Below are positions 20,695-36,962 of a stretch of DNA of 64,000 nt, in pieces. A model generated the notes under the pieces. It searched no databases, was not told the origin of the DNA, and worked only from the letters and a program-made list of their open reading frames with translations. The position numbers were made by a program, and so were the translations under genes. This stretch comes from Pedobacter sp. W3I1 (GTDB lineage Bacteria > Bacteroidota > Bacteroidia > Sphingobacteriales > Sphingobacteriaceae): the NCBI RefSeq assembly GCF_030816015.1, contig NZ_JAUSXN010000001.1, positions 5,394,001 to 5,458,000 on the forward strand, given 5' to 3'. Position 1 is the stretch's first letter. The number at the start of each line of letters is the position of its first letter.

Positions 20695-20760
20695 CAAAGG
20701 TATTCTGCAGTGGGCTGATAAAGTATGACGGCAGTTAGCTGGAAAAGTGATCTTCTTCAC
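20695..20760 (-). promoter_or_regulatory. Predicted Fnr-type activated promoter of ccoNO
   Basis: On the minus strand a -7 element TACCTTTG (20702-20695) lies 33 bp before the ccoNO ATG. The palindromic site GTGAT-CTTC-TTCAC (20747-20760) is centred 58.5 bp from the downstream edge of the -7 element. The same distance is found at 25101-25166, 29898-29963 and 36897-36962. The site is within the last codons of ccoS and is flanked by A and T runs. Confidence 0.6.
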
Positions 20761-20914
20761 TTTTTTCAGCAATAACCTCATCATCGAAGAGCATACGGAT
20801 GCCTGGGGTATGTACATCATCGTTCTGTCCGGTTTTATATGCCCAGAAGAATGCGGCCAGAAAAATGAGTGCCATTAAAACGCTGCAACCCACTAAAAAG
20901 TAAAGGATGTTCAT
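20735..20914 (-). CDS. ccoS: CcoS, cbb3 oxidase maturation protein
   Basis: A 59-aa protein translated from ATG at 20912-20914: MNILYFLVGCSVLMALIFLA begins it, a single N-terminal helix, followed by AAFFWAYKTGQNDD, the conserved region of the CcoS family, and an acidic tail. CcoS is needed for cofactor insertion into cbb3 oxidase. The start overlaps the ccoI stop in an ATGA arrangement (20911-20914). Its 3' end doubles as the activator-binding region for the ccoNO promoter. Confidence 0.85.
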   Translation of the reverse strand: MNILYFLVGCSVLMALIFLAAFFWAYKTGQNDDVHTPGIRMLFDDEVIAEKSEEDHFSS

Positions 20915-23295
20915 ATCAGTTTATTTTTACGGGCAAACCATCTGGTTGCCAGGGTTGTAAAGGAAATAATGGTAACCGTACTAATCGGCATCAGCACTGC
21001 GGCCACCAAAGGATAAAGGGTACCCTGCACGGCAAAATAAATACCAATACAATTATACGCGATGGCTATAGCGAAGCTTGTTTTAATGATCTTCAAGCCG
21101 TCCTTACTTAACTGAATAAAATCTGGCAGAAAATTTAAGGCATTTCCTTTCAGAATGGCATCACAGCCTGGCGTAAAATTGTTGATGTTATCCGTTAATG
21201 CGATTCCAAAATTACTTTGTTTTAAGGCTCCGGCATCGTTTAACCCATCGCCCAACATCATTACTTTATTTCCCTGCTGTTGAAGCTGCAGAACAGCGTC
21301 CAGTTTTTGGAGCGGGCTCTGGCGAAACCTGATGGTTGTATTTTTCGTAAAAATGGTATCCAGCATATAACGGTCTTTATCGGTATCGCCAGATAAAACC
21401 TGTAGTTTGAATTCCGAAAGTTTTAAGATCAACTGCGCCAATCCTGAACGCCATTGCTGTTTAATGTCAAAGCTTCCTTTATAAACATGGTCGATTACAA
21501 TATGCACTCCACTTTCACTAGCAGACTTTACAGCAATGGGTAGCATGGATAAATGCCCTGCATAAATGCTGTGGTTGTTTATGCTGGCAGTCAAACCTTT
21601 TCCTACCACTTCTTTATAATCGCTTAGCGAATAAAACCGGTCAACATTTAAAGCTTTTAAGATATGCCTGCTTAAGGGATGGATAGAGTTTCGCAGCAAC
21701 GAGGCCACAATAATTTTTTCTTCGCTTGTTAAAGATCCGTTAAAACCAATTTCGGCATTTTCGTTACTGGTTAACGTACCTGTTTTATCGAAAATCAGGG
21801 TATCGCATTTGGCAAGTTCTTCAACAGCATCTGTATTTTTTACATAAAAACCCTTTTTATCAAAAACAGATAAAATAGCAGATAAGGTAAAAGGGGTACT
21901 TAAAGCCAGTACGCATGGACAGGCCACAATAATTACAGCTGTAAATGCCGACCAGGCTTTGTGGCTGTCGTTTTGGAGCAGCCAATACGCGGTAGCTGCA
22001 AATGCGATCAGGAAAACACCAAGGCTGAAGTATTTGGCTACGGTATCGTTAAAATTCTGTTTATCAGTATTGTTTTTATAGTTATCGTTGTTCCATAAAC
22101 CGGTTAAATAACTCTGCGAAACAGGTTTAATTACTTCAAGTTCTATGGCCTCGCTGGTTTGTCTGCCACCGGCATAAATAATCTCACCCAAAACTTTGTG
22201 TACGGGTTCTGATTCGCCTGTAACAAAACTCATGTCCATCCAGGCCTCACCTTTCATCAGAATGGCATCAGCCGGAACCAGCTCCCCGTTCCTGATCCAC
22301 AACCTATCGCCGATCTTGATTTCGTTTATAGCAACTGGTTTTTCTTTACCGTTCTGCAATGTAGTTACTGCAATTGGGAAGTAGGAACGGTAATCGCGAT
22401 CAAAAGAAATGTGATGATAGGTGCGTTGTTTGAGCCATTTGCCCATTAAAAGCAAAAACACCAACCCGGTTAGGGTATCAGCAAAACCTGGGCCTGTGCC
22501 AAAAACAACTTCAAAAGCTGTACGCAGGAAAAGCACTGCAATTATCAGTGCCAAAGGGGTATCGAGGTTAATATGCCTGTGTTTAAGACTTGTTATTGCT
22601 GAGGTAAAATAATCGCGGCCACAATAAAAAGCCGCAGGAATAGAGAAAGCAAGGTTTAGCCAGCCAAACAACGATTGAAATTGTTTTTCAAAGCCCGAAA
22701 GGCCAAAATATTCCGGAAAACTAAAAAGCATGACATTGCCCATTAAAAATCCGGCAACGGCTATTTTTAAAACCAAAGCTTTATCTACAGAAATGCTATG
22801 TTCCTTTATTACATCCTGAAGACTGATCAAAGGCTCGTAACCAATCTGATTTAAAGTTTCTACCAGTTGCCTTAACGAAATTTCGTCGTGATTGAAACTT
22901 ATGGTAACCTGTTTTTTAAGAAAATCGATCCGGGAGCTGAATATAGCGGGGTTGATTTTATAAAGGTGTTCTAACAGCCAGATGCATGAACTGCAGTGGA
23001 TGGCCGGGATATAAAAAGTAATAATGCCCGAGCTTTCGTGCTTGTAATCGAGCAGTTGGTCAATGATTTTAGGTTCGTCGAGATATGCTAAATGATGCTC
23101 ATTTTTAAACTGCCTGCCCGGATTATTGTTGTACACATAATAATTGCATAGGTTGTTCTCTGAAAGGATCTTGAAAACAGCCATACAACCCGCGCAGCAA
23201 AAATCTTTACCTGCTGTCTGGTATTTTACCTTAGGCAAATCTTCGCCACAGTGATAACAGACAACTTTGGTCGCAGTTTTATTTTGATCTTCCAT
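20911..23295 (-). CDS. ccoI: CcoI/FixI copper-translocating P1B-type ATPase
   Basis: A 794-aa protein of CcoI length. The N-terminus has a CYHCGE...CCAGC metal-binding module (about residues 14-40), then a heavy-metal-associated domain with IHCSSCIW (about 98-105). Transport helices include the CPC motif (VACPCVLALSTP). The catalytic parts are DKTGTLTSNE (phosphorylated Asp) and MLGDGLNDAGALKQ (hinge). CcoI exports Cu(I) across the inner membrane for assembly of the heme-copper centre. It starts 12 bp after the hemN stop and overlaps ccoS by 4 bp, so all three are one transcript. Confidence 0.95.
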   Translation of the reverse strand: MEDQNKTATKVVCYHCGEDLPKVKYQTAGKDFCCAGCMAVFKILSENNLCNYYVYNNNPGRQFKNEHHLAYLDEPKIIDQLLDYKHESSGIITFYIPAIHCSSCIWLLEHLYKINPAIFSSRIDFLKKQVTISFNHDEISLRQLVETLNQIGYEPLISLQDVIKEHSISVDKALVLKIAVAGFLMGNVMLFSFPEYFGLSGFEKQFQSLFGWLNLAFSIPAAFYCGRDYFTSAITSLKHRHINLDTPLALIIAVLFLRTAFEVVFGTGPGFADTLTGLVFLLLMGKWLKQRTYHHISFDRDYRSYFPIAVTTLQNGKEKPVAINEIKIGDRLWIRNGELVPADAILMKGEAWMDMSFVTGESEPVHKVLGEIIYAGGRQTSEAIELEVIKPVSQSYLTGLWNNDNYKNNTDKQNFNDTVAKYFSLGVFLIAFAATAYWLLQNDSHKAWSAFTAVIIVACPCVLALSTPFTLSAILSVFDKKGFYVKNTDAVEELAKCDTLIFDKTGTLTSNENAEIGFNGSLTSEEKIIVASLLRNSIHPLSRHILKALNVDRFYSLSDYKEVVGKGLTASINNHSIYAGHLSMLPIAVKSASESGVHIVIDHVYKGSFDIKQQWRSGLAQLILKLSEFKLQVLSGDTDKDRYMLDTIFTKNTTIRFRQSPLQKLDAVLQLQQQGNKVMMLGDGLNDAGALKQSNFGIALTDNINNFTPGCDAILKGNALNFLPDFIQLSKDGLKIIKTSFAIAIAYNCIGIYFAVQGTLYPLVAAVLMPISTVTIISFTTLATRWFARKNKLI

Positions 23296-23307
23296 GTTAA
23301 CCCCTAC

Positions 23308-24654
23308 TTAAATTGATGAACTGAATAATTGGGTTTTGGGCTGTTTAAGCCAAAGTTTTTCATCGAATGCCATACAAATATTTCTGAGGAAAGATTTTCC
23401 TCTTGTGGTAATCCTGATTTCTTTTTCCGTTACCCAGATCAGCTTATCGCGTAATAAGGGTAACAGCCTGCCATATACTTGTTCTGGAATACCTTCATTG
23501 TACATTGTATTTTCCCTGCACATGATGTTAAGGATATGTTTTCTTACCTCAAGATCTTCGCCTGTAAGGAGATGCCCTTTTTCTACCGGAAGTATACCTT
23601 GTTCAATTTTATCGAGATAAGCTTCCACCGTTTTGGGGTTTTGTGCAAAAGCTGTCCAGCTATCGCTGATGGAAGAAACACCCAATCCGATAAGCAAATG
23701 GGTATGCTGATTGGTGTAGCCCATAAAATTACGGTGCAGTCTCTGTTCGGTTATTGCCTTAAACAAAGAATCGCTTTTTAATGCGAAATGATCCATGCCC
23801 ACATCTTTATAGCCTGCTCCATCAAGTAACTGCCTGCCCAATTGGTAAAGCGCAAACTTTTCATCGCCAGTAGGGATATCTTTTTCGGTATAATGTCTTT
23901 GGCCAGGCTTTAACCATGGCACATGGGCGTAACTGTAAAAAGCAATCCGGTCGGGCTGCAGCGCAATTACCTCTTTTATGGTAGCTGATAAGCCAGATAT
24001 TGTTTGTCCTGGGAGACCATAAATCAGATCAAAATTAACTGAGGTATAGCCAATTTCCCTTGCTTTTTCGGTAACCAGTGCAACCTGTTCAGGCGTTTGG
24101 AACCGGTTAATTAAAAACTGAACTTTAGGATCAAAATCCTGGATGCCCAGACTTAATCTTTTAAAACCGAGACTGTACAGCGTAGTTAAGTGTTCACTGG
24201 TAGTATTGGCTGGATGTGCCTCAAAAGAAAATTCTGCATCAGGAGCCAAAGTTGAATTTTGCAGAATGCCATTGATCAGTAAGCCCAGGTTTTCGGCGCT
24301 GAAAAAAGTAGGTGTCCCGCCACCGAGATGCAGCTCTTTTAGTTTCGGTTTTTCACCTAAAGCTTTCACATACATTCCCCATTCAGAAAGAACTGCCAGG
24401 ACATAGGGTATCTCTACAGCATGATTTTTGGTAATGCGGGTATTGCAACCACAATAGGTGCACAAACTTTCGCAGAATGGAAGGTGAATGTATAAACTTA
24501 TCCCCTCTTTTTTATAGGTTGCATAGCTTTTAGTTACTGTACTTAACCAATCCTTTCCATTAAAGTTCTCATTGTCCCAATATGGAACGGTTGGGTAACT
24601 GGTATACCTTGGAGCGGCAACATTATACTTTTTCAGTAGCGCTGATGTATCCAT
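23308..24654 (-). CDS. hemN: Oxygen-independent coproporphyrinogen III oxidase
   Basis: A 448-aa radical-SAM enzyme. The 4Fe-4S motif is HLPFCESLCTYCGC (about residues 57-70; CxxxCxxC plus the extra Cys typical of HemN), followed by LHLGGGTPTFFS and NFDLIYGLPGQT. The C-terminal HemN domain includes GYTNQHTHLLIGLGVSSIS. It makes protoporphyrinogen IX without oxygen and so supplies heme under microaerobic conditions. It shares one base with the preceding small gene (TAATG) and precedes ccoI, so heme synthesis and oxidase maturation are co-expressed. Confidence 0.95.
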   Translation of the reverse strand: MDTSALLKKYNVAAPRYTSYPTVPYWDNENFNGKDWLSTVTKSYATYKKEGISLYIHLPFCESLCTYCGCNTRITKNHAVEIPYVLAVLSEWGMYVKALGEKPKLKELHLGGGTPTFFSAENLGLLINGILQNSTLAPDAEFSFEAHPANTTSEHLTTLYSLGFKRLSLGIQDFDPKVQFLINRFQTPEQVALVTEKAREIGYTSVNFDLIYGLPGQTISGLSATIKEVIALQPDRIAFYSYAHVPWLKPGQRHYTEKDIPTGDEKFALYQLGRQLLDGAGYKDVGMDHFALKSDSLFKAITEQRLHRNFMGYTNQHTHLLIGLGVSSISDSWTAFAQNPKTVEAYLDKIEQGILPVEKGHLLTGEDLEVRKHILNIMCRENTMYNEGIPEQVYGRLLPLLRDKLIWVTEKEIRITTRGKSFLRNICMAFDEKLWLKQPKTQLFSSSI

Positions 24655-25082
24655 TATTTCGAAGTTTTAACGGTTGCACATTCGTTCTGACAGCAGCAGG
24701 ATTTGCCTACGCATTTACCAGCAGCCCATTGATCGAGGTTTTTGATTACCTGTTCCATCCGTAATTTAGCGTCCATATCGACGGCTGCCAAAGGAACATT
24801 TGCTACCTTTATTCCGGCAGCACCAGCGGCTTTTAAGTCAAGATGATCGGTCTCAGATGACGAGGTGGCAATATATTTTATACCCAATGCTGTTAGGCCT
24901 ACAATCATGGCTTCACTCAGCTCATCATTATTAAAAACCAATAATGCCTCTTTTCCTGCTGCAAATGAAAGTGTACCGGCGGTTAAGCTGTTCGCAATTA
25001 TAGTAATGTCGTGTTTTTTATAATTGGCCAGTACCAACCATTCCTTTTCATCGGGTTTGATGTTGTAAGCTATAGCTTTCAT
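24654..25082 (-). CDS. Stand-alone D-lactate-dehydrogenase-like catalytic half with cysteine-rich tail
   Basis: A 142-aa protein that matches only the N-terminal substrate-domain lobe of D-isomer 2-hydroxyacid dehydrogenases. LLVFNNDELSEAMIVGLTAL, GIKYIATSS and HLDLKAAGAAGIKVANVP follow the LdhA pattern. The NAD-binding domain is absent, and the substrate Arg of the LdhA 'ALR' motif is replaced (IATSSS). After ~115 residues it ends in GKCVGKSCCCQNEC, five Cys in 13 residues, suggesting metal or thiol chemistry. It is the first gene of the hemN-cco transcript, linked to hemN by a one-base overlap. It is unlikely to be a dehydrogenase; a role linked to metal or redox sensing is conjecture. Confidence 0.7.
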   Translation of the reverse strand: MKAIAYNIKPDEKEWLVLANYKKHDITIIANSLTAGTLSFAAGKEALLVFNNDELSEAMIVGLTALGIKYIATSSSETDHLDLKAAGAAGIKVANVPLAAVDMDAKLRMEQVIKNLDQWAAGKCVGKSCCCQNECATVKTSK

Positions 25083-25100
25083 ATACAGAGTTTATGGATA

Positions 25101-25166
25101 CAAAACTATAGTGGAAGTGAGCGGCAACAGGTGAGGATGCTTAGAGAAAAAAGTGATTTTTGTTAC
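25101..25166 (-). promoter_or_regulatory. Predicted Fnr-type activated promoter of the hemN-cco operon
   Basis: On the minus strand the -7 element TAGTTTTG (25108-25101) precedes the first gene by 18 bp. A palindrome, on the plus strand GTGAT-TTTT-GTTAC (25153-25166), is centred at 25159.5, 58.5 bp from the edge of the -7 element. The architecture is identical at three other promoters in the window. Confidence 0.6.
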
Positions 25167-25189
25167 ATTTCTTAGTTTAGCGCTTGGAG

Positions 25190-25740
25190 TAGGGCGCTTG
25201 GAGTCGATTAACTGATTTAAATAATTAATTTTTGAGTTTGGAGCTTAGGGCTCAGGGCATAGCGTTGAATAACCGATTTAACAATTTACTGATGAATCAT
25301 CCCGGCAATAAATATGAACTTATTGACTAATTTTTATAATATGATCGTCATTCTCACGCAGGTGGGAATCCTAAAGCATTAAGATTATCTTCGATGAGCA
25401 CTTCGTGGTTCCAAATCAATTACCAATGACAGACTTCAACAGAGTGGTCGTCTTTCCCGCGCAGGCGGGAATCTTAAAGCGCTTGCATTACGATTCCCAA
25501 TCAAGTTGGGAATGACGAACCGCCAAAATCTGTCATCAATACTCCGATGTACTTGAAAAATTCTAGCCTCTACCAATGACAGATTCTAAAATTGGCGTCA
25601 TCTCGACCGAAGCAAATGCGGAGTGGAGAGATCTTTGGACTATGTCTTATATCCCGTTGAACTTATTTCAGCATTTATAGATTAAAGATTCTTCACTGCG
25701 TTCAGAATGACAGGTTTTATAAACGATCATCATCACGAAC
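25190..25740. repeat. Mosaic of dispersed palindromic repeats between the cco cluster and its regulators
   Basis: No gene is seen in 25167-25758. Two near-identical CGCTTGGAGT units start it. Units with ends GTCATTCTCACGCAGG (25348) and GTCTTTCCCGCGCAGG ... AAGTTGGGAATGACG (25447-25517) belong to the family also at 469-543. From 25571 to 25645 the sequence is an almost exact inverted copy of 37572-37647 (about one mismatch in 73 bp) carrying the CATCTCGACCGAAG repeat. The segment 25373-25434 also has an inverted counterpart near 37640-37700. Confidence 0.65.
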
Positions 25741-25758
25741 TATTGACTAGCGAACAAA

Positions 25759-26790
25759 TTACTGTTTAATATTTCTGAGTTTTTCGATCGAGAGAATATT
25801 TATGGCATTGCCTGTTTTATCAATCAGTTTTTCATCTTTAAAATCAGCGAGCATTCTGCTTACCGTTTCGCTGGCCGTACCTACTAATGCAGCAAGATCA
25901 TCACGCGAAATCCGGATCGTACAACTATCTGAAATACCATCACCAAATTTTGTTGCAACCTGCAATAATGCCTCTGCTACACGTTTTCGTACCGAAGAAT
26001 AGGCGAGTTGAAGCATCTGCTTTCCTTTATCACGCACATTTCCAGATAATAAACCGATAAAAGTTTTAGATACGGCCTGATGGTTGAGCAGGTATTCCAT
26101 AAAATCTGCCTTAGGAATCTGGATAATGTCCGATTCTATTAAAGTTGCCGCATTGTCTGTGTATACTTCGCCATTGCATAAACTTTCATATCCAAAAAAA
26201 TCACCATCATGATACAGGCTCGACGAAAGTTCCCTGCCATCCTTAAAACGTTTGTAGGTTTTTACCTGTCCCTTAACTACATAATAAAGATGGGTCGGTT
26301 CATCCCCTTCCACATAAATAATTTGTTTGTTGGCAATTGGCCTTGATTTGCCCCTTTTACGAAGTTCCTCCATCACCGTTTCGCTATTGCCCGTAGCTGA
26401 ATTAAAGCTAGCCGATTGCTGTTTTTTCTTAAACCTGCTTTCTATGGCCTTAAAGAGCTCAATGTCATCAAATGGTTTAGTGAGGTAATCATCTGCGCCC
26501 ATTTCCATACCTTTCCTCATGTCTGCCCGCTCTGTTTTTGCGGTAATGAAAATAAAAGGAATGTTTGCCGTTTTCTGGTTTTTGTTAAGCAGGTACAGCA
26601 CCCCATAACCATCCAGTTCCGGCATCATGATATCGCAAAGTATTACATCGGGTAAATGACTCAGGGCCATTTCTACACCTAACTTACCATGTTTAGCAGT
26701 AAAAGTTTCATAACCGGCCAAATCGAGCACTTCGGCCGTACTTTCCCTGATATCATCATTATCTTCAATAATCAAAACTTTCTTGTTCAT
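25759..26790 (-). CDS. Response regulator fused to a Crp/Fnr transcription factor
   Basis: A 343-aa fusion. Residues 1-120 are a complete receiver: acidic pocket E9/D10, phospho-acceptor D53 in ILCDIMMPELDG, T83 and K105 in LTKPFDD. Residues ~140-265 are a cyclic-nucleotide-binding-type domain (YYVVKGQVKTYKRF, DGDFFGYESL) without the Fnr iron-sulfur cysteines. Residues ~270-343 are a Crp winged helix; its recognition helix ASETVSRML has the E-x-x-S-R pattern that in Fnr reads TTGAT half sites. It therefore combines the jobs of FixJ and FixK. It lies 24 bp after the FixL-like kinase in one operon and is the likely activator of the shared promoters described at 20.7, 25.1, 29.9 and 36.9 kb. Confidence 0.88.
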   Translation of the reverse strand: MNKKVLIIEDNDDIRESTAEVLDLAGYETFTAKHGKLGVEMALSHLPDVILCDIMMPELDGYGVLYLLNKNQKTANIPFIFITAKTERADMRKGMEMGADDYLTKPFDDIELFKAIESRFKKKQQSASFNSATGNSETVMEELRKRGKSRPIANKQIIYVEGDEPTHLYYVVKGQVKTYKRFKDGRELSSSLYHDGDFFGYESLCNGEVYTDNAATLIESDIIQIPKADFMEYLLNHQAVSKTFIGLLSGNVRDKGKQMLQLAYSSVRKRVAEALLQVATKFGDGISDSCTIRISRDDLAALVGTASETVSRMLADFKDEKLIDKTGNAINILSIEKLRNIKQ

Positions 26791-26814
26791 GGGAATGGAT
26801 ATTAAACTGTAAAA

Positions 26815-28005
26815 TTATTTATTGAAGGTAAAGCTAAGCGTAAAAACCGTACCTGAATTTTGTTCGCTCTGGCAGGCTACGGTGCCGCTCATCAGACCTA
26901 CATATCTTTTTACAATGTTCAGACCTAAGCCTGTGCCCGGGATATCGCCCGTATTATGGGCCCTGAAAAAAGGTTCGAACAGATTGTTCTGATCTACTTT
27001 TGGAATGCCAATACCGTTATCTTTCACCTCCAAAATGAGTTCATCATCTTTTAAAATGGAATTAAACTGGATTAAAGTATCCGCACCAGAATATTTTATA
27101 GAATTGGAAATCAGATTGATCACACAGTTTTTTAACAGGTTCGGATCGAGGTAAACCTCGGCAGTTGTACCGGTGTGTTCGTAAATAATGTGCTGGTTCT
27201 CTTTGGTCATCATCTGCATTTCTTCAGCTATTTCTTCAGCAAAGCTGATGATATTGAAAGATTGGGCCGATGCTTCTACTTTTCCGGCCTCGAGTTTTTC
27301 GAGCGAGAGGAAATCGTTTAAGATGGTAGTAAGGTTATTAATCGAATTTTTGATTTTCAGCGTATGTTTTTCTACACTGGCCACATCCTGCTTGGAGGTA
27401 TATTTATCTATTAAAGAAGCCGATAATTGTATAGAACTGAGTGGGGTTCTAAACTCATGCGAGGCCATCGAAACAAACCTGGTTTTAAGCTGATTGAGTT
27501 CTTTCTCTTTCTGAAAAAGTGCCTGCATATTTTCTTTGGCCATCTCGAGTTCCGATACCAGCTTTACCAGATCGTGCGTACGCTCTTTTATTTTGACCTC
27601 GAGTTTTTCGGTATAGCTTCTAATCTGTTCTTCATTGGCTTTTTCCTTACTCAGATCGTGGATAAAACCAGTATAGATTTTACGGTCGCTAAATTTTATT
27701 TCGCTTACGCCCAGTCTAAAAGGGAAAACCGATCCGTCTTTGCGTTTTCCAGAAACTTCTCTTCCAGTTCCGATGATATGTTTTTCACCGGTATGTTCAT
27801 ATCGGGACAGGTATCCATCGTGGCGTGAATGATCGGGCTCTGGCATCAAAACCGATACGTTTTTGCCTACCAGTTCTTCCCTGCCATAGCCAAAAAGCTC
27901 AAGCGCAGCAGGATTTAAATGTTCTATAATCCCTTTATCGTCAATGGTAATAATTCCATCAATGGCATTTTCAATAATCGCATCCAAAAATTTCGACCTA
28001 TCCAT
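26815..28005 (-). CDS. FixL-like heme-PAS sensor histidine kinase
   Basis: A 396-aa cytosolic kinase from ATG at 28003-28005; the longer frame would need a TTG at 28071. The PAS domain (1-120) resembles the FixL heme domain: MPEPDHSRHDGYLSRY followed by TGEKHIIGTGREVSGKRKDG. H62 in RHDGYL and R82 in IIGTGR are exactly 20 residues apart, as are the heme ligand H200 and the ligand-gating R220 of Bradyrhizobium FixL. A coiled coil (about 120-175) leads to the HisKA domain with H183 in MASHEFRTPLS, and to the HATPase domain (DNGIGIP, GTGLGLNIVKRY). No membrane segment is seen. It probably senses oxygen through heme and phosphorylates the receiver-Crp protein encoded next. Confidence 0.9.
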   Translation of the reverse strand: MDRSKFLDAIIENAIDGIITIDDKGIIEHLNPAALELFGYGREELVGKNVSVLMPEPDHSRHDGYLSRYEHTGEKHIIGTGREVSGKRKDGSVFPFRLGVSEIKFSDRKIYTGFIHDLSKEKANEEQIRSYTEKLEVKIKERTHDLVKLVSELEMAKENMQALFQKEKELNQLKTRFVSMASHEFRTPLSSIQLSASLIDKYTSKQDVASVEKHTLKIKNSINNLTTILNDFLSLEKLEAGKVEASAQSFNIISFAEEIAEEMQMMTKENQHIIYEHTGTTAEVYLDPNLLKNCVINLISNSIKYSGADTLIQFNSILKDDELILEVKDNGIGIPKVDQNNLFEPFFRAHNTGDIPGTGLGLNIVKRYVGLMSGTVACQSEQNSGTVFTLSFTFNK

Positions 28006-28060
28006 TCGTTTCAAGTATATCCTTGTAAATATAGAAAAGTTATTCCCGATCTTTTTTCTC

Positions 28061-29842
28061 TTATTCAACAATCAATCCGTCAAGCTTGTCTTTCGAATCT
28101 GCCAATTGTTCATATAACCCTTTTAACTCACCAGATGCCTGATCGGCAACCTCATTGAATAGTTTTTTATAATAATTAATCCCTTCGGCCAGCTGGAGTT
28201 TAAATCCGTTTAACTGCTTCCTTTTTTTATCGCTGAAGTTTTGAAGTTGCTGTTTGATATCCTCCTGAAGATAATCGATGTAGAGGTTAAGTTCCTTGAT
28301 AAATATATGCGGTCTTTCCACTTGCGCCAACAGGTTAATTTTCCCATAAATATGGCCAACCATCTCATCAAATGAATATACATCAGAAAAATAGGCTAGG
28401 TTCGGGCCTGGGCAAATGGCTACCGCTGTATTTTCTTTTGGCTTAGCGATATTGTATTTCAAATAGGTGGAGGAACACAAACCTTCGCAAAGGCAAACTT
28501 TTTCGGTTACCAGGTTAAATTGCTTTTGATATTCATCTGCCGATAATCCGGCTGTTTTTAGGCTCTTGATCTTTAAGTGCTGATATTCACGTGATGCCGT
28601 ACAGATGGCCTGCTCGGTAAATTCGGTATTGTTGCAGAGGTATTTCTTGGTACATGGGCTTCCCGGCCGGCCCTTTTCAATCCGCTCGGTACGCTGGCGG
28701 TCTATTGTACTGTTTTTAAAATTATTAAACCTGATACCCAGCGGAGAGGCTCCACTTAGATAAAAATCGCCTTCTGCCGAGCTGGCCAGTTTTGCCAATG
28801 TTTCGGCATCTACATTGGTTACTTCGGGTACCAACAGGAAAGGGCTTCCCCACCCTGTGGCATCGAGATTGTAATATTGAAGGAGAAAATCATGTTCAGC
28901 TGCAGTACCGATTCCACCCTGAACGCTGATCCGTTGTTTGGGCTGCTTTTGTGTTTGGATTCCCTTTTGTGCCAAAGCAGATTGGTACATTTTAAAAAGC
29001 TCAATGAGCATATCGTTTTTTTTGAGCTTAAATTCTTCCAAAATCGGCCCCAATAAATACCCTTCTGTTGCAAATGCATGACCGCCACAGTTCAGACCCG
29101 ATTCTATCCGGAATTCTGAAACCCACAAACCTTTTTTAGCCAAAAATTTAGCCTGGATTAAAGCCGACCTGAAATCACTTACTTTTAAGATGATTTTCTT
29201 TTTCAGCTTGCCATCTTCATCAGGGAAAAAATCTTCAAAGTTTTCCATATAGCTGTATAATTTCGGGTTCATACCAGCAGATAACACGACTGAAGAGTTC
29301 AGCTTACTTTCGGCAAAACCGCGTAGCGCAGTTAATGCATCAGTATGGGTATCGCCAGAATATTCACCATCTACATAATTCATTTTATCTACCTTGGCCA
29401 TAATGTTCACATCAATAGCCCCCATCCTCATCGCATTTTTTAAAAGCGATTGAAAGGTCTGTTTAGTTTCACCTTCAGGATAATCCAACATCAGGTCATA
29501 TCCATGTTTTAATTTAGAAGTATCAGGGAGAAGTTCGAAATAACGGCAAATATCATTTCCAGCAGTAAAATCCTGTTGTTTTAATGCTCTAAAATCGTCG
29601 GTGATGGCTTCCAGCAAAAAGTTCAGGTAGGCGGTGATGCGTTTACTCCGGCTTTCGATAGCATCTTTCGGAATCGCTTCGAAATGAATCGACCGATTTT
29701 TTGAATGATGAGCTCGCATGCGCTCGATCAGTTCGTCATCAACAATAGATAAAACCGATGAAATACCGTACCTGGCTACTTTTAATGGAGTATCAATAGA
29801 ATAGCCTAAGCCCAATACAGGGATATGGAATGAATGTGGCAT
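28061..29842 (-). CDS. Uncharacterised 593-aa protein with TIM-barrel-like glycine motifs and a Cys cluster
   Basis: I do not recognise a named family. The motifs IPVLGLGYSIDTPLKVARYG (N-terminus), GLNCGGHAFATEG (about 250-262), VQGGIGTAAEHD (307-318) and DATGWGSPFLLVPE (327-340) occur in the order expected of FMN-binding nitronate monooxygenase / FabK-type barrels, so an FMN barrel is a reasonable guess. A region with C397, C403, C414, C450, C452, C456 and C477 could bind a metal or an iron-sulfur cluster. The last ~90 residues are helical and charged. It is first in an operon with the FixL-like kinase (56-bp gap) and the receiver-Crp regulator, and its promoter carries the shared Fnr-like site. 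A role in redox or oxygen-linked metabolism is inferred from this context only. Confidence 0.6.
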   Translation of the reverse strand: MPHSFHIPVLGLGYSIDTPLKVARYGISSVLSIVDDELIERMRAHHSKNRSIHFEAIPKDAIESRSKRITAYLNFLLEAITDDFRALKQQDFTAGNDICRYFELLPDTSKLKHGYDLMLDYPEGETKQTFQSLLKNAMRMGAIDVNIMAKVDKMNYVDGEYSGDTHTDALTALRGFAESKLNSSVVLSAGMNPKLYSYMENFEDFFPDEDGKLKKKIILKVSDFRSALIQAKFLAKKGLWVSEFRIESGLNCGGHAFATEGYLLGPILEEFKLKKNDMLIELFKMYQSALAQKGIQTQKQPKQRISVQGGIGTAAEHDFLLQYYNLDATGWGSPFLLVPEVTNVDAETLAKLASSAEGDFYLSGASPLGIRFNNFKNSTIDRQRTERIEKGRPGSPCTKKYLCNNTEFTEQAICTASREYQHLKIKSLKTAGLSADEYQKQFNLVTEKVCLCEGLCSSTYLKYNIAKPKENTAVAICPGPNLAYFSDVYSFDEMVGHIYGKINLLAQVERPHIFIKELNLYIDYLQEDIKQQLQNFSDKKRKQLNGFKLQLAEGINYYKKLFNEVADQASGELKGLYEQLADSKDKLDGLIVE

Positions 29843-29897: not shown

Positions 29898-29963
29898 CAA
29901 AACTATCGTAGTTGTGCCAATCAGACTATGATGCCTGTCAAAGCAAAAAATGAGTGAGATCAC
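29898..29963 (-). promoter_or_regulatory. Predicted Fnr-type activated promoter of the 593-aa/kinase/regulator operon
   Basis: The minus-strand -7 element TAGTTTTG (29905-29898) lies 55 bp before the start codon. The site ATGAG-TGAG-ATCAC (29950-29963) is centred 58.5 bp from the -7 edge. The right half and flank, ATCACTTTTTAAT (29959-29971), are identical over 13 bp to 36958-36970. Autoregulation of the sensor operon would follow. Confidence 0.6.
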
Positions 29964-30426: not shown

Positions 30427-30428
30427 TA

Positions 30429-30504
30429 ATTTCCACAGCAAAAATATCGAAGTTGAACTAACCTGGCGATGTTGCCTGTCAAAGCAAAAAACGAACTGGA
30501 ACAT
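30429..30504 (-). promoter_or_regulatory. Decayed duplicate of the 593-aa gene promoter
   Basis: The sequence parallels 29888-29963 base by base (TTTC.ACAGCAAAA.TATCG.AGTTG ... TGCCTGTCAAAGCAAAAAA). It retains a -7-like CAAAAATA at 30439-30446. The activator site expected at 30491-30504 has drifted to ACGAA-CTGG-AACAT. No gene follows it. It is probably a relic of a duplication that also left the PNPOx-like remnant nearby. Confidence 0.5.
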
Positions 30505-30634
30505 TTTTAGTGGATCAAGATCCTAGATTTGGATGATTGAGGGCAGTTTTCCCTAAAATCGTCATTTGAAGCTGATTTTTCATCTGCTGCAGCAATCTTA
30601 TCGTAGGCAGGAAGGATTGCTCTTCCAAAAAAGT

Positions 30635-31135: not shown

Positions 31136-31200
31136 AAAAGTCGGGACAGGCTGTCGTTGCTTCTCGCAATGATGTCCCATTTTGGAATCTGTTATTCCTG

Positions 31201-31656: not shown

Positions 31657-31683
31657 CTTACAAGAATTAATGTTGATTATGAA

Positions 31684-32718
31684 TTAAGTTCCGGCAACAT
31701 CCAAAACTATCCGGCCCTCAATCTCACCCTTTTTCATCTGTCCGAATACTTCGTTGATGTCTTCCAGTTTTGCTGATTTAACCTGCGCCCTTACCTTTCC
31801 ATCCACCGCAAATTCGATGGCTTCCTGCATATCTTTTCTGGTGCCTACAATAGAACCCCTGATGGTTAATCTGTTTAACACGGTATCGAATATGGGAAGA
31901 TCAAAACTGCCGGGAGGTAGTCCGTTTAGCGATAAGGTACCCTTTCTGCGTAATGCAGAAAGCCCCTGACTGAAAGCAACAGGTGTTACTGCAGTTACCA
32001 GTACGCCATGCATACCTCCTGTCTGTTTTTTAAGAAATTCACCAGGGTCATGCTCAAGCGCATTAACCACAATGTCTGCACCGAGTTTTCTGGCCATCTC
32101 CAGTTTATCGTTCGAAATATCAATTGCAGCAACCTGAAAGCCCATAGCTTTTGCATATTGAACGCCTAGATGGCCGAGCCCGCCAATACCCGATATCGCA
32201 ACCCATTCGCCTGCTTTTACCTCAGTTTCTTTTAAACCTTTATACACGGTAACGCCGGCACAGATAATCGGTGCCATTTCTGCAAAATTTACATGCGAAG
32301 GGAAATGGGCAACATATCTCGAATCGGCAATTACATATTCTGCAAAACCTCCATCAACACTATAGCCTCCATTTTGCTGCTCGTAGCACAATGTTTCCCA
32401 ACCTGTTAAGCAAAATTCGCAACAGCCACAGGCACTGTACAACCAGGGCACACCAACTACATCACCTTCTTTTACACTTTTAACATCGTGCCCCATTGCG
32501 GCTACCAAGCCTATGGCCTCATGACCGGGCACCAATGGCATTTTTGATTTTACCGGCCAGTCGCCATTACAGGCATGAAGATCGGTATGGCATACACCAC
32601 ATGAAATTACCTTAACCAAAATCTCATATTGATTGAGCGGCCTAACCGGCAGCTCTTCTATAGCCAGTGGTCCACCATACTCATGGATAACTGCGGCTTT
32701 CATTGTTTTAGGATACAT
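31684..32718 (-). CDS. adhP: Zinc-dependent alcohol dehydrogenase, AdhP type
   Basis: A 344-aa medium-chain dehydrogenase. Catalytic zinc ligands lie in SCGVCHTDLHACNGDWP and PGHEAIG. The structural zinc site is CGCCEFCLTGWETLC. The Rossmann motif is GIGGLGHLGVQYAKAMG followed by AAIDIS, consistent with NAD(H) preference. A close match to the bacterial AdhP group of ethanol-active enzymes is apparent from memory. It can oxidise ethanol or reduce acetaldehyde during oxygen limitation. An alternative ATG lies five codons downstream (32703). It is between the USP and PNPOx-like genes. Confidence 0.9.
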   Translation of the reverse strand: MYPKTMKAAVIHEYGGPLAIEELPVRPLNQYEILVKVISCGVCHTDLHACNGDWPVKSKMPLVPGHEAIGLVAAMGHDVKSVKEGDVVGVPWLYSACGCCEFCLTGWETLCYEQQNGGYSVDGGFAEYVIADSRYVAHFPSHVNFAEMAPIICAGVTVYKGLKETEVKAGEWVAISGIGGLGHLGVQYAKAMGFQVAAIDISNDKLEMARKLGADIVVNALEHDPGEFLKKQTGGMHGVLVTAVTPVAFSQGLSALRRKGTLSLNGLPPGSFDLPIFDTVLNRLTIRGSIVGTRKDMQEAIEFAVDGKVRAQVKSAKLEDINEVFGQMKKGEIEGRIVLDVAGT

Positions 32719-32773
32719 ATATGCTGTTTACAATAGATTGTACGAATTGAATTTTATTTAATAATCGGCTAGT

Positions 32774-33649
32774 TTACATTGGAATACGGTGTTCAGGAGG
32801 TAAAACTAAAAGCGGGATCTGAATATGATCAGACATGTTTAGCGTATAGCTCCCTTTAAGCAGGCGGTGAAAAAAACTGTGTTTTCGGTGCACCATTGCC
32901 AGGATATCGATCTGTCCATTCTCCACAATCCAATCTAAACCATCCTTAATCCGTTCACTGTTTATATGCCTATGGTAGATATTTCTATAGTTAACCCTAT
33001 CGGCAACCCGGTTTAAAAAATCCTCTGTCGCTTGTTTGTGAAGGGCAAGATCTGAATTGGCATTACCGGTATGTGTAATGAGTATATCGGCATTAAAAGG
33101 TTTTGCAAATTCAGCAAGTGCGCACAAAACGGGGATATCACTATGGTGAAAATCTGTAGCAAAAGCAATTTTTTTAGGCTTCTTAAAGCGGTATCCCGCA
33201 GGTATAAGCAAAACAGGTATTTCCTGCTCGATGATTTTCCTGGCAACACTGCCCATAAGTGTTTTGGTTAACTTATCTGCCCGGTTTAGTCCGGCCACAA
33301 CGAGGTTCATTTTACATTCAGCAAAATATTTACTAATTTCCTGTTCAACCTCGCCACTAACAGATCTTCCAAACACTTCTGCTTTAAAACCAAGCTCATG
33401 ATGTGCCTTTTTATATTTTTCTTCAACCCTTTCAACCAGTTTGCCCAGCGCTTTTTTAGCATCATCTTCTATAAGCTTATATTCTTCAAGCGGCCATACC
33501 AGAGAGGCCGCAGCGGGAGAAAACTCAGGAACCTGAAAAACATTTAACAATTCTACCCTGGCACCAATACCATGGGCCAGATCAGTTGCATAATCAGCTG
33601 CGTTCTCTGCCGTTGCAGAAAAATCAACAGGTACCAGGATCTTTTTCAT
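32774..33649 (-). CDS. Tandem-domain universal stress protein
   Basis: A 291-aa protein with two UspA domains (about 1-152 and 158-287). The first has the start KKILVPVDFSATAENAADYA and the ATP-loop-like segment AGLNRADKLTKTLMGSVARK, ending in IPVLLIP. The second begins KKIAFATDFHHSDIPVLCAL and ends in IPLLVLPPEH. The second domain's nucleotide loop is less canonical (MVHRKHSFFHRLLKGSYT). Such proteins accumulate under energy or oxygen stress. It is first gene of the USP-adhP-PNPOx operon. Confidence 0.87.
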   Translation of the reverse strand: MKKILVPVDFSATAENAADYATDLAHGIGARVELLNVFQVPEFSPAAASLVWPLEEYKLIEDDAKKALGKLVERVEEKYKKAHHELGFKAEVFGRSVSGEVEQEISKYFAECKMNLVVAGLNRADKLTKTLMGSVARKIIEQEIPVLLIPAGYRFKKPKKIAFATDFHHSDIPVLCALAEFAKPFNADILITHTGNANSDLALHKQATEDFLNRVADRVNYRNIYHRHINSERIKDGLDWIVENGQIDILAMVHRKHSFFHRLLKGSYTLNMSDHIQIPLLVLPPEHRIPM

Positions 33650-33696
33650 ATTGAGCTCTTTTTAATTGTGCATAAAGTTTAGAAAAACCGGACGTA

Positions 33697-33762
33697 CAAA
33701 ATATGAGCCGCATCAGTTATTAAAATGATTATCTCCCGGTGTTGCCATTTAAACGCCATCAT
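33697..33762 (-). promoter_or_regulatory. Weak candidate for the same activated promoter before the USP operon
   Basis: A -7-like ATATTTTG (33704-33697) has the TTTG part but not the leading TA. At the standard 58.5-bp distance stands TTAAA-CGCC-ATCAT (33749-33762), which keeps only one good half site. The match could be chance; the spacing and the operon content are the reasons for listing it. Confidence 0.3.
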
Positions 33763-33873
33763 TATTATGATATGCTAAAGAAATATTTAGACTAATTATC
33801 ATTACCACAAAAAATGATTAAATCATTATGCTTTCCGTAATTTCAATGTTTCAAAATTATCCCATTATATAAA

Positions 33874-34239
33874 ATGAGTGTCCATATAGGCTTAATGATC
33901 TGGAAGGAAATGAAGCAGAAAGATATCTCTGTTTCAGACATTGCTGCCGCCCTTGAGATCAGCAAAACAAAAGCACAGGAGATGCTGAATACCGCGACTA
34001 TCGATATCCTTACTTTGGTCCGTGTAAGTGAAATCCTGAACTACAATTTTTTCAGTTACTACGAAAGCGGAAAGGTTTTTTCGAAGATCGGTTTAAAGGA
34101 AAAAAACCAGTTAACAGCAGAAGTTGACCGGTTGAAGGCATTACTCGCCGAAAAGAACAAAGCCCTCGAACTCCAGGAAAGGTTAAATAAGATTCAGCTC
34201 AGTACGATTTCACTCTTGGAAAAAGGACAGTTTAGATAA
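33874..34239 (+). CDS. Small helix-turn-helix protein with C-terminal coiled coil
   Basis: A 121-aa protein. Residues ~5-65 fit a Cro/CI-type HTH (VSDIAAALEISKTKAQEML, then LTLVRVSEILNYNFFSYY). Residues ~72-115 are a heptad-rich coiled coil that probably dimerises it. The start is ATG at 33874. It is divergent from the USP operon and convergent with the YceI gene. A regulatory role is likely; the target is unknown. Confidence 0.7.
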   Translation: MSVHIGLMIWKEMKQKDISVSDIAAALEISKTKAQEMLNTATIDILTLVRVSEILNYNFFSYYESGKVFSKIGLKEKNQLTAEVDRLKALLAEKNKALELQERLNKIQLSTISLLEKGQFR

Positions 34240-34270
34240 AATGTACCATAGATGCAGTAACACATCTGAA

Positions 34271-34861
34271 TTATCCTGCCATTTCCATTTTTAAAAAGAA
34301 AACCACAACCAGTTGATCTTTAGCCTGGATGAGCCTGCCCATTTTTTTTGGAGGAGTCAGATGAAAATCAGAAAAATTGATGACTTGTTGCCCGATCAGC
34401 TCCATGGCGCCCCGTTTAGCATTGATCTGATAACAGATTTCGAATCTTTTTAATACACCAGATAGTGTAATCTCCACATCACCTTTAACAAAACTTTGCT
34501 GACCTGCGGACGGGGTTTCTTTTAAGGACAAGAATTTGATTCTTAGCACTGGAAACTTGTTCACCTGTAGCGTATTTAGTAGCTGTTTAGTCATCATTGT
34601 ACTGTTACAGTCAAAATTCTTTACCTCAAGATTTAAGGTTCCGGAGAGCACAATATGGTCTGTTTTATCTTTCGAGACCAGAACGGTATCGGTTTTGGGA
34701 TAACGCAGGATTGCACAGGAAAAGCGGTTTATATTGGTGGTTCCATTAACAGTGAGCATGCTGTTTTCACTCACTACCCATCTTGAGGTACTTTTGGTTT
34801 TACCTGCAGGCCTCAAGCCGGCCAACAGCAAAAAAAAGATGGTTAACAGTAGCTTCATCAT
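34271..34861 (-). CDS. YceI-family periplasmic protein, divergent
   Basis: A 196-aa secreted protein with a short signal sequence (residues 1-20). The YceI lipocalin-like fold is suggested by LTVNGTTNINRFSCAI near the start, the VKGDVEITLSGVLKRFEI strand and the DFHLTPPKKMG end. YceI proteins bind isoprenoid-type lipids; function in Bacteroidota is not settled. It is the third gene of the YceI-porin-YceI set, 50 bp after the porin gene. Confidence 0.75.
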   Translation of the reverse strand: MMKLLLTIFFLLLAGLRPAGKTKSTSRWVVSENSMLTVNGTTNINRFSCAILRYPKTDTVLVSKDKTDHIVLSGTLNLEVKNFDCNSTMMTKQLLNTLQVNKFPVLRIKFLSLKETPSAGQQSFVKGDVEITLSGVLKRFEICYQINAKRGAMELIGQQVINFSDFHLTPPKKMGRLIQAKDQLVVVFFLKMEMAG

Positions 34862-34910
34862 GTTTTTTTTTAAGGCAGGAACAAATCGTTCCCGCCTAAT
34901 GGTTTATTGG

Positions 34911-36227
34911 CTAAAATCCTACAACAGCCTGAATCACATACCCTTTAAATTTTCCTCCGCTGCGGAAATCTGCAGTTGGGAAATCTTTATATTTCTGGCT
35001 CACATACTCGCCTTTTAACAATATGTTTTTGGTCATAAACCATCCTGCAGCAATGGCAATACGATCTATTTTTACGTCACCGGTATAGGTTATTGCAGGA
35101 GTTGTTCCGGCAGCTGCCACATCAGGCATGGCGGCGGTAACCACATTGTATTTTGCACCGATAAAAAAGTTTTCTGTCTTGCCGAATCTATATATACCAT
35201 CTATTGCTATCTGTTCAGCTCCCCGACTGCTTGTCTCTGTTTTTGATCTGCCCTTCGCATTTTCATAAGTTGCAAAAAGTTCCAGTCCCTGCAATTTTAT
35301 AAATGCGTTTAGCTGAAGGGCATTCACTTTTTTGGTAAAACCAGGGTTAAACCGTCCGGAGAAGGCATTGGTGGTATTTACTGCGCCGACTTTTTCCAGC
35401 ACCATAAAATAGTTCGATCCTGTACGGTCGCCGCCATATAAGGTCTGTCCGCCAGAACTGTTATTGCTGTAATAAGAGGCCGCGAAACGCACCCTCAAAT
35501 CGCTGTTCAGCTGTTTATCAAAACCACCTTTTACATAAACAGCTGGTGATTTGTGCACGTTTGCATCCTGAGGAGTAGCGATCAGGCTATCAATATTACC
35601 TTTAATCATTCCATTGGAAACACCAATTAAACCAAACAGTGCATTTTTTCTCACTAAAACCTCTCCGCCAATTTCAGTTGTAAATCCATCCATGATGTAA
35701 TTTTCAATAAATCGGTTATAAATCGTTTGCCCGCCATCGGACCTGCGGAAATGCTGATCGCCATAGTTGATTTCCATGTGCCCGATTTTGATGGTGGTTA
35801 CCGACATAATATCGTCCCACAATTTACCCTTGAACGGTAGCTTATCAAACTGGATATATCCACCCTTCACCCAGGTTTCGTTGTGGTGACGGGAAGAAAG
35901 ATAGCTTGTAAGATTCAGCCTGATCCCATCTGAGAGTTGTACATCCATGAACAGATTGGCATTGGCAGTATTAAAACCCGGGGTCATTTTATATAGTCCG
36001 CCAGAAGTGTTTTCATGTTTCAGCCCCTGAAAAGACTGGGTAAATCCCGCACCAAAGCGAACTTTTATTTTATCAAACACGGCTTTACTATCTTTGGGTG
36101 CCTCAAAAACATTGATACCGGATTTATCATAAGGCCTCAGGTTGGAAACCTGTGCCTGTACCCCAAAACTATACGAACTTATAATGGCTACCACGAGGGC
36201 AGAAAGTAGTGTAAACTTATTTTTCAT
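34911..36227 (-). CDS. Outer-membrane beta-barrel (porin-like) protein
   Basis: A 438-aa protein with a signal peptide ending at VQAQ (residue 26). Amphipathic beta-strands run through the chain (LRLNLTSYLSSR, VTTIKIGHMEINYGDQ, LRVRFAASYYSNN). The terminal residues ...VIQAVVGF end in Phe, as expected for insertion by the BAM machinery. Length fits a porin or phosphate-selective-porin-like barrel. It sits between two yceI genes, 23 bp after the first, so the three probably act together at the envelope. The substrate is unknown. Confidence 0.75.
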   Translation of the reverse strand: MKNKFTLLSALVVAIISSYSFGVQAQVSNLRPYDKSGINVFEAPKDSKAVFDKIKVRFGAGFTQSFQGLKHENTSGGLYKMTPGFNTANANLFMDVQLSDGIRLNLTSYLSSRHHNETWVKGGYIQFDKLPFKGKLWDDIMSVTTIKIGHMEINYGDQHFRRSDGGQTIYNRFIENYIMDGFTTEIGGEVLVRKNALFGLIGVSNGMIKGNIDSLIATPQDANVHKSPAVYVKGGFDKQLNSDLRVRFAASYYSNNSSGGQTLYGGDRTGSNYFMVLEKVGAVNTTNAFSGRFNPGFTKKVNALQLNAFIKLQGLELFATYENAKGRSKTETSSRGAEQIAIDGIYRFGKTENFFIGAKYNVVTAAMPDVAAAGTTPAITYTGDVKIDRIAIAAGWFMTKNILLKGEYVSQKYKDFPTADFRSGGKFKGYVIQAVVGF

Positions 36228-36250
36228 GATTTTATCTTAGTGATGAACAG

Positions 36251-36868
36251 TTATTTTGCTACCGATGTCTTAACATAATCGAATTCGAACTGGACATTGA
36301 GGTTATTACCCACTTTCATTGCCCCAAGCATAAAACTTGGTGGTTCAATACCATAGTCGGTTAGCATTAAGTTTTCGCTGCCATGGCAACTGATGGAACC
36401 ATCTGCATTTACCAAAGCCATTACCTTCATTGAAAGGCTTTGTGTTTTTCCTGCAATGGTCAGGATTCCTGTTGTCTCAATCGAATACCTTTTTGCCTGT
36501 ATCATGGTAACTGTTGCAAAGGTGAGTTGATAGCTTATTTTAGGAAATTTAGTTGCGCTAAGCGTCTTGTAGGTACGGTCGTCCATGGAAGATTTCCCGC
36601 TTTTAAGGCTCCTTGCTGCCAGGGTAAATCTTAGGGCTGTTACATCCGTCATTTCACCCCAGGCATTGAAATTAAATGTACCTGTGCTTTCGAACTGTTT
36701 GGATGTCATCGACCAATCGTGAACATTCGAAGTGCCCGTTACCTTGACTGAACCGCTCCCCATTTTAGAAAACTGATATGCTGTTTGCGCAACTGTTACC
36801 AGCGGAGACAGCATAAATAATAGGATGATAGGTCTGATTTTTTTCTGGAATATGTTAAATGTTTTCAT
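36251..36868 (-). CDS. YceI-family periplasmic protein
   Basis: A 205-aa protein with a signal peptide ending near VAQTA. The YceI signature is clear: VKVTGTSNVHDWSMTSKQF, LKSGKSSMDDRTYKTL and YQLTFATV, with the C-terminal DYGIEPPSFMLGAMKVGNNL. It is the first gene of the YceI-porin-YceI operon. The promoter upstream has the same -7/Fnr-site architecture as the cbb3 promoters, so expression probably rises when oxygen is low. Confidence 0.87.
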   Translation of the reverse strand: MKTFNIFQKKIRPIILLFMLSPLVTVAQTAYQFSKMGSGSVKVTGTSNVHDWSMTSKQFESTGTFNFNAWGEMTDVTALRFTLAARSLKSGKSSMDDRTYKTLSATKFPKISYQLTFATVTMIQAKRYSIETTGILTIAGKTQSLSMKVMALVNADGSISCHGSENLMLTDYGIEPPSFMLGAMKVGNNLNVQFEFDYVKTSVAK

Positions 36869-36896
36869 AGCAGGGTTATTGGATTAAACTGTTGGT

Positions 36897-36962
36897 CAAA
36901 CCTACCCCTGTTCTGCGTCAGATCTTATGATGATGGCCAGATGAAAAATTGATCGTCATCAC
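36897..36962 (-). promoter_or_regulatory. Predicted Fnr-type activated promoter of the YceI-porin operon
   Basis: The minus-strand -7 element TAGGTTTG (36904-36897) lies 28 bp before the start codon. The site TTGAT-CGTC-ATCAC (36949-36962), one mismatch from the E. coli Fnr consensus TTGAT-N4-ATCAA, is centred 58.5 bp from the -7 edge. It is the best palindrome of the four promoters. Confidence 0.65.

Follow-up and report, generated by a model that had tools for sequence, protein, structure and literature searches.

Background

The FixLJ-FixK cascade has the cbb3 oxidase fixNOQP as a target, and its FixJ protein is a receiver with a LuxR/GerE-type output. FNR is an oxygen-sensing Fe-S protein with an N-terminal cysteine cluster; the anaerobox of FNR, FixK and Anr reads TTGAT-N4-ATCAA, and E. 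coli promoters with FNR sites in tandem have been the subject of study. Here we describe four promoters in a 64,000-nucleotide stretch of the genome of the soil bacterium Pedobacter sp. W3I1 (positions 5,394,001-5,458,000 of a single 6.40-Mb contig; hereafter the window) that each carry two Crp/Fnr-type sites in tandem at a fixed distance from the -7 element. They lie in and around a locus encoding a FixL-type kinase and a protein in which a receiver is fused to a Crp-type output, the receiver-Crp regulator. We consider it likely that the four belong to an oxygen-limitation regulon as sigma-A promoters that depend on an activator, and that the kinase and the regulator run this regulon as a shortened Fix pathway.

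The Pedobacter sites share with the anaerobox the TGA-N6-TCA core, an E-x-x-S-R recognition helix in the regulator and microaerobic targets. They differ at base 1 of the half-site, which is T in the anaerobox and mostly G or A in the Pedobacter-type promoters (T in 0/97 upstream and about 1/97 downstream halves), and the regulator has none of the N-terminal cysteine cluster of FNR. The rhizobial FixL-FixJ-FixK and hFixL-FxkR-FixK systems are alike in having a FixL-type heme PAS kinase, a receiver, a Crp/Fnr-family activator and cbb3 (fixNOQP/ccoNO) and assembly genes as targets (PMC7888657). In rhizobia the receiver and FixK are separate, and in hFixL-FxkR-FixK the latter must first be transcribed (PMC7888657), whereas in Pedobacter receiver and Crp output form one protein, so that the FixK transcription step would be skipped. 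The Pedobacter sites also differ from the rhizobial ones in being tandem and in their RTGAY half-sites.

Crp-type palindromes at -41.5 and near -61.5 are likewise found at the class I, II and III promoters of E. coli Crp, where -41.5 is the class II and -61.5 the class I position (PMC5957442). The class III promoter deoC has its sites near -40 and -90 (PMC5957442), whereas in Pedobacter both positions are paired in a fixed 22-bp unit and the sigma elements are of the Bacteroidota type. BT4338/MalR of Bacteroides belongs to the same protein family in the same phylum but is linked to carbon limitation, not oxygen (PMC6989115, PMC8510549), and the word "tandem" does not occur in the main text of either paper. 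In one open-licence library we found no account that brings FixL and Pedobacter together, none of a receiver-Crp oxygen regulator in Bacteroidota (by listed titles, partly the best 12 of 81) and none of this sensor-regulator combination with a fixed double operator (partly the best 12 of 81 and 12 of 367). The component parts are of known kinds.

Four promoters with a common layout

A sigma-A promoter of Bacteroidota carries a -7 TAnnTTTG and, 19-21 bp upstream, a -33 TTG or TTTG. The initial annotation of the window had pointed to the octamer CAAANNTA at 20695, 25101, 29898 and 36897 with an Fnr-like palindrome at an invariant distance upstream. All eight elements are present at these places. 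The octamers on the plus strand are TAnnTTTG on the minus strand, which is the gene strand for all four promoters, and the -7 element is present in each. The centre-to-centre distance to the palindrome is 55.0 bp in four cases out of four, equivalent to the 58.5 bp first given from the first base of the octamer.

All elements of the four promoters lie on the minus strand. The ccoNO promoter has its -7 element TACCTTTG at 20695..20702 (predicted +1 at about 20690), a second site TAACTGCCGTCA at 20726..20737 and a first site GTGAAGAAGATCAC at 20747..20760. At the promoter of the operon with a lactate dehydrogenase (LDH)-like gene, hemN and ccoI, the same elements are TAGTTTTG (25101..25108), TAAGCATCCTCA (25132..25143) and GTAACAAAAATCAC (25153..25166). 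The sensor operon has TAGTTTTG at 29898..29905, the second site TGACAGGCATCA at 29929..29940, which is a perfect TGA-N6-TCA, and the first site GTGATCTCACTCAT at 29950..29963. The YceI-porin promoter has TAGGTTTG at 36897..36904, TGGCCATCATCA at 36928..36939, where TGG replaces TRA, and GTGATGACGATCAA at 36949..36962, one half of which is TTGAT. Beyond the motif the four promoters are dissimilar.

Transcription starts mapped in F. psychrophilum place TAnnTTTG at -12 to -5 (PMC9723704). By this analogy the +1 would lie about 5 bp past the octamer, the predicted leaders would be 14 to 51 nt long, and the first and second sites would be centred at about -63.5 and -41.5, compared with about -61.5 for class I and -41.5 for class II positions of Crp. 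In all four promoters the TA is preceded at 26 nt by TCAY, and this TCAY is the right half of the second site, TRA-N6-TCA. The single class I site near -64 proposed in the initial annotation thus holds as far as the first centre is concerned and needs to be replaced by two tandem sites 22 bp apart, which, judging by their positions, appear to occupy the place of the -33 element. Nor is the half-site the TTGAT of FNR: it is RTGAY.

Conservation of the tandem spacing in relatives

We compared the best 80 of 291 confirmed loci from relatives, all lying within 10 kb of a regulator gene; as judged by identity of the regulator, Pedobacter species come closest among the named relatives (96 %). Upstream of TAnnTTTG, TGA-N6-TCA occurs at a spacing of 55 bp with 135 matches in 76 of the 80 loci. 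The remaining spacing bins between 20 and 149 hold 0 to 5 matches each, except 54 (8 matches) and 33 (26 matches), and 25 of the 26 strict sites at spacing 33 are accompanied by a site at 55. The spacing in orthologous promoters is therefore kept, and it is found in other families of the class as well.

The consensus of 97 promoters less than 75 % identical reads A-tract, [G/A]TGAY-N4-RTCAY, T5, N4, T[A/G]A-N6-TCA[T/C], N22, TAnnTTTG, in which the TGA and TCA of the first site and the octamer are 100 % by construction. In the second site the left half is conserved at 97-99 % and the right half at 73-79 %. A TRA-N6-TCA with at least five of six matching bases lies exactly 22 bp downstream of the first site in 77 of the 97 promoters, the median for other offsets being 1. 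When the -7 element is left out of the search, a site-to-site spacing of 22 bp is found in 103 distinct sequences, and each of the remaining spacings between 13 and 59 in 0-14. In the upstream half, base 1 is G in 63 %, A in 20 %, C in 15 % and T in 0 % of the promoters; the corresponding figures for the downstream half, written in its own orientation, are G 55 %, A 42 % and T and C 1 % each. A -33 TTG is found in 0-3 of the 97 promoters at any position from -30 to -18 relative to the TA, and its near absence fits an activator-dependent promoter.

Genome searches and controls

We searched the 6.40-Mb genome for the octamer combined with RTGA and TGA-N8-A, allowing nine gap lengths, and found five matches compared to one in the control. 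Four of the five are the window promoters, with one common gap length, and the fifth differs in its gap; since RTGA was derived from these four promoters, this result is partly circular. The whole 65-bp pattern with up to three mismatches gives eight matches versus five in the control, for which the mismatch numbers are not given. Five of the eight have at most one mismatch and correspond to the four window promoters and a site at C1:1964322-1964386; the other three have three mismatches. One of these is a degenerate duplicate of the sensor-operon promoter at 30439..30503 (minus strand), with no obvious gene of its own. It lies 541 bp upstream of the real promoter, retains the T-run and the TTTGACAGGCA stretch and has a broken first site; it is perhaps the remnant of a duplication.

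A weight matrix trained on 78 other promoters, each less than 70 % identical to those of the window, sets all four apart, with scores of 47.2, 47.1, 46.5 and 38.9 bits compared to 21.6 for the next best place in the window. Of 20 Markov windows, 19 score less than the cut of 8 and the highest gives 13.9. The tandem pattern without the -7 element gives, at up to three mismatches, 97 matches per strand versus 71 and 57 in the controls. Against a departure from chance, ARTGA-N6-TCAYT alone shows no excess (20 matches versus 20 in the control, per strand), and CAAANNTA-N31..59-TGA-N6-TYA, a pattern too loose to be of use, is not clearly enriched with spacings pooled over the whole genome (159 versus 137). 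The signal resides in the spacing and the flanks.

Replacing seven N by eight in the pattern yields two matches in the genome, with three mismatches each, versus three in the control. This variant finds none of the known sites and serves as a +1 shift control. It is matched in 44 of 151 genomes of the family, and many of those listed (L111-L140), though not every one, have TGA-N6-TCAA, a TTTCTTA-type left half and a second TCA 23 bp apart. Similar TCAA/TTTCTTA matches at 22 bp are among those listed in the family and phylum surveys described below. The genes behind these matches, judged by eye, encode YceI-like, extradiol dioxygenase-like and NAD-binding proteins. This sister motif is probably the regulon of another Crp/Fnr paralogue.

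A FixL-type kinase and a receiver-Crp regulator

The regulator gene (25759..26790, minus strand) encodes, in the order given by Pfam, a receiver (Response_reg), a cNMP_binding domain and HTH_Crp_2, with phospho-acceptor D53 and the helix S-E-T-V-S-R. The cNMP-binding fold and the Crp helix-turn-helix, together with the TGA-N6-TCA core of the sites, are features of the Crp/Fnr superfamily. D53, the conserved receiver residues and the E-T-[VI]-S-R helix are found in 81 of 81 sequences. The E-x-x-S-R motif of the initial annotation is thus present as E-T-V-S-R, yet the sites read RTGAY. The only cysteines of the protein are 52, 205 and 290, of which Cys52 is invariant in the 81 sequences and Cys205 and Cys290 vary. 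An FNR-type Fe-S regulator was rejected in view of the missing N-terminal cluster, and a FixJ-type (GerE) output was rejected because Pfam gives cNMP_binding and HTH_Crp.

The kinase (26815..28071, minus strand) has a PAS-HisKA-HATPase make-up with a FixL-type heme PAS; its real start is probably an internal ATG. In FixL, H200 is the proximal heme histidine, R220 is distal and R206 contacts a heme propionate, and we take H84, R104 and R90 of the kinase to be the respective equivalents. The PAS domain (127 aa) matches FixL structures with E values of 2e-33 to 6e-31, DosP coming next at 6e-16. H84, R104 and the H-box are each conserved in 81 of 81 kinases. The heme PAS of the sensor supplies a probable mechanism, which the initial annotation had left unnamed.

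The first gene of the sensor operon (28061..29842, minus strand) encodes a protein of 593 aa without a Pfam or NCBIfam match. It was not recognised as a known sensor: it has just two sequence matches in PDB, at E of about 0.5, and its AlphaFold model (mean predicted local distance difference test score 73.6) resembles flavin mononucleotide TIM-barrel enoyl reductases and nitronate monooxygenases only at template modelling scores of 0.30-0.36. Six cysteines (252, 397, 414, 450, 452 and 477) are kept in at least 98 % of 57 sequences. In another family (L205), a homologue of this protein, identified by eye, likewise stands behind a tandem match with two mismatches. Alignment A2 comprises 37 of 56 homologues and alignment A3 20 of 80, each together with the window protein.

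The window encodes a second protein of the receiver-Crp type, at 59832-60896 (plus strand), which shares 32 % identity with the regulator. Its receiver lacks the phospho-acceptor (SGINVA in place of CDIMMP), making it a pseudo-receiver Crp.

Genes behind the promoters

The ccoNO promoter precedes a fused ccoNO gene (COX1 and FixO; 18521..20662), followed by ccoP, ccoG, ccoH and a DsbD_2-type gene (14794..18354). The second promoter had been assigned to a hemN-cco transcript. Both the gene named hemN, a radical SAM gene (23308..24654) with a Radical_SAM match only, and a ccoI-type P-type ATPase gene (20911..23295) do lie behind it; its first gene is an open reading frame (ORF) of 142 aa, ORF142 (24654..25082), which resembles D-2-hydroxyacid (lactate) dehydrogenases and matches only their catalytic domain. 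The fourth promoter precedes a YceI, "porin" and YceI operon (34271..36868), in which the 438-aa "porin", so named in the initial annotation, has no Pfam or NCBIfam match. All of these genes are on the minus strand.

Among the relatives' loci, the site pair lies upstream of ccoNO in all 50 loci with the gene, upstream of ORF142, the first gene before hemN, in 68 of 70, and upstream of the sensor operon in 37 of the 52 that were scored, five more of the 57 not being scorable. It stands upstream of a Usp gene in 1 of 12 loci and is found at the starts of none of the 80 regulator genes, 69 hemN genes, 50 ccoP genes or 7 ADH genes. The homologues of ORF142 are 140-159 aa long in 65 of 70 loci, slightly shorter in four and 341 aa in one; the D-LDH-like gene has shrunk to about 142 aa in these loci, and the promoter pair is nonetheless kept. 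In some other genera a full-length D-2-hydroxyacid dehydrogenase stands behind the regulator, as judged by N-terminal sequence and, for L159, by Pfam.

The fifth tandem promoter of the genome, at C1:1964322-1964386 with the -7 element TACATTCG, precedes genes for a Bflower_2 protein and a P-type ATPase. The latter (L245:936-3165, about C1 1964735-1966964) consists of two ORFs, one of 268 aa without a Pfam match and one of 472 aa with E1-E2_ATPase, and may thus be split by a frameshift.

Elsewhere in the class, the ORFs behind the pattern were read for loci among L141-L215; 18 of these loci were picked by hand and 17 were sent to Pfam, L190 giving no match. Genes for COX1/ccoN, a ccoI-type ATPase, glutamyl-tRNA reductase, a PFL-like protein, the NiFe hydrogenase small subunit, D-2-hydroxyacid dehydrogenase, Usp and Hsp20 were confirmed in this way, and within the family a c-type cytochrome gene lies behind the pattern. 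These genes were picked from a longer list that includes genes without an obvious link to oxygen; Pfam-checked genes without an obvious low-oxygen role are PAP2, DUF417, pyridine nucleotide-disulphide oxidoreductase, BON, ethylbenzene dehydrogenase-type and flavodoxin genes.

Co-occurrence of regulator and promoter pattern

We surveyed 151 genomes of the family and 247 of the phylum, both sampled evenly, scoring the regulator as present at E <= 1e-60. Counts cover all matches, individual places are known for the matches listed, and some sites with two mismatches may be due to chance. Within the family, 109 of 151 genomes have the regulator, and 108 of these 109 have the pattern at up to two mismatches (421 sites versus 15 in the control). 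The pattern is also found in 15 of the 42 genomes without the regulator (24 sites versus 3). The association has a Fisher p of 5e-18 with no correction for ancestry. In the phylum survey, the 61 genomes of the own class have 130 sites versus 4 in the control, and the other 186 have 17 versus 9.

The tandem geometry, as far as its sequence pattern tells, is class-wide, and its link to the receiver-Crp regulator is seen within the family only. Linkage and co-occurrence within the family suggest that the receiver-Crp protein regulates these promoters; outside the family the association is weak. The core of the initial annotation, that a Crp/Fnr-type site at a fixed distance from the -7 element marks a microaerobic regulon, is supported by the orthologous promoters, by the other families and by the downstream genes.

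Proposed mechanism

Starting from the observed architecture, its conservation, the domain make-up, the linkage and the co-occurrence within the family, we propose the following model, whose steps from oxygen to binding are modelled on FixL. The kinase would bind heme and oxygen through its PAS domain and, as oxygen falls, would phosphorylate the receiver domain of the regulator, two dimers of which would then bind in tandem 22 bp apart, about two helical turns: one at the strong RTGAY-N4-RTCAY site with its A/T-tracts at about -63.5, the other at the degenerate TRA-N6-TCA site at about -41.5. With its second site weak, such a pair would tend to be bound cooperatively and in a threshold-like manner. 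The bound dimers would bring RNA polymerase to promoters in which TAnnTTTG is present and the -33 TTG absent. In the Pedobacter genome the predicted targets are ccoNO, the LDH-like/hemN/ccoI operon, the YceI operon, the Bflower/P-type ATPase operon and the sensor operon, and with the sensor operon itself a target the response should reinforce itself by positive feedback. The FixL-FixJ-FixK cascade would thereby be shortened through the fusion of a FixJ-like receiver to a FixK-like output.

Several observations weigh against this model. The 80 loci were chosen around the regulator, which makes them useless as a test of dependence on it. Sensor-operon promoters in many species keep the second site only partly, and the pair lies upstream of YceI in just 1 of 4 loci with the gene (in one of the misses, L001, it is shifted one base out of register). 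In the kinase, the R206 equivalent is N in 57 of the 81 sequences, R in 17, among them the window protein, and K in 4. The sampled genomes are related to one another, and with this shared ancestry the Fisher p overstates their independence. In the class outside the family, the pattern is found in 20 of the 31 regulator-bearing genomes versus 10 of the 23 that lack it (p = 0.17), a loose tie that leaves room for other Crp/Fnr paralogues sharing the geometry. The genome itself has seven HTH_Crp_2 matches, five of them over the cut-off (one with an internal stop), including the second receiver-Crp. Finally, some of the listed survey matches are of the TCAA/TTTCTTA type, among them both of those in G035, which lacks the regulator; these may belong to another paralogue, and the types were counted together.

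Alternative explanations

The tandem promoters could be real and oxygen-related and yet be bound mainly by another Crp/Fnr paralogue, such as the pseudo-receiver Crp at 59832-60896 or a stand-alone Crp, with the receiver-Crp protein playing a minor or indirect part. The number of HTH_Crp_2 matches, the T-E-T-L-S-R helix of the second receiver-Crp and the sites in genomes without the regulator, both in the family and in the class outside it, speak for this. We nevertheless regard it as unlikely, given that sites are absent from only one of the 109 regulator-bearing genomes of the family, that the pair is present in nearly all loci at ORF142, usually the gene directly behind the regulator's, and that the regulator's own operon is preceded by a pair.

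The activator might instead bind the -63.5 site only, TRA...TCA being a variant -33 sigma element or the half-site of another factor. Its right-half TCA does overlap the expected -33 position, and in 14 sensor-operon promoters the second site matches at just three of six bases. The offset of exactly 22 bp to the first site is, however, kept by both halves, the left one is nearly invariant though it lies outside any -33 element, and the strict TGA-N6-TCA at spacing 33 is with one exception accompanied by the first site. We judge a single bound site improbable.

We think it very unlikely that the sites serve to repress in the presence of oxygen instead of activating when oxygen is low. Sequence does not give the direction, and Crp/Fnr proteins can repress; but these promoters lack a -33 element, E. 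coli Crp has its class II position at -41.5 and its class I position at -61.5 (PMC5957442), and in the relative F. psychrophilum low oxygen induces cbb3 and heme genes (PMC9723704).

That the fourfold agreement is due to chance or to gene conversion from one locus can practically be dismissed: the sensor-operon promoter does have its degenerate duplicate upstream, but apart from the motif the four have little in common, many species and other families show the pattern again while control matches are few, and the orthologous promoters argue against it.

Conclusions

Our preferred reading remains a FixL-type kinase acting on a receiver-Crp protein at paired sites. With less confidence, we lean towards a wider hypothesis for much of the class Bacteroidia, in which a one-step Fix pathway would operate, paired dimers would replace the -33 element, the 22-bp operator would be a general Crp/Fnr logic, and the TCAA/TTTCTTA sister, at 22 or 23 bp, would serve another paralogue.

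Oxygen sensing and the switching to cbb3 oxidases in free-living Bacteroidota have seemingly been little described. If the reading is true, it would provide sensor, regulator, operator and target list together, and a 65-bp pattern that can be searched for in any Bacteroidia genome. It would also define a type of promoter where a pair of activator dimers substitutes for a core promoter element, and the recurrence of the arrangement in many relatives would predict their response to low oxygen.

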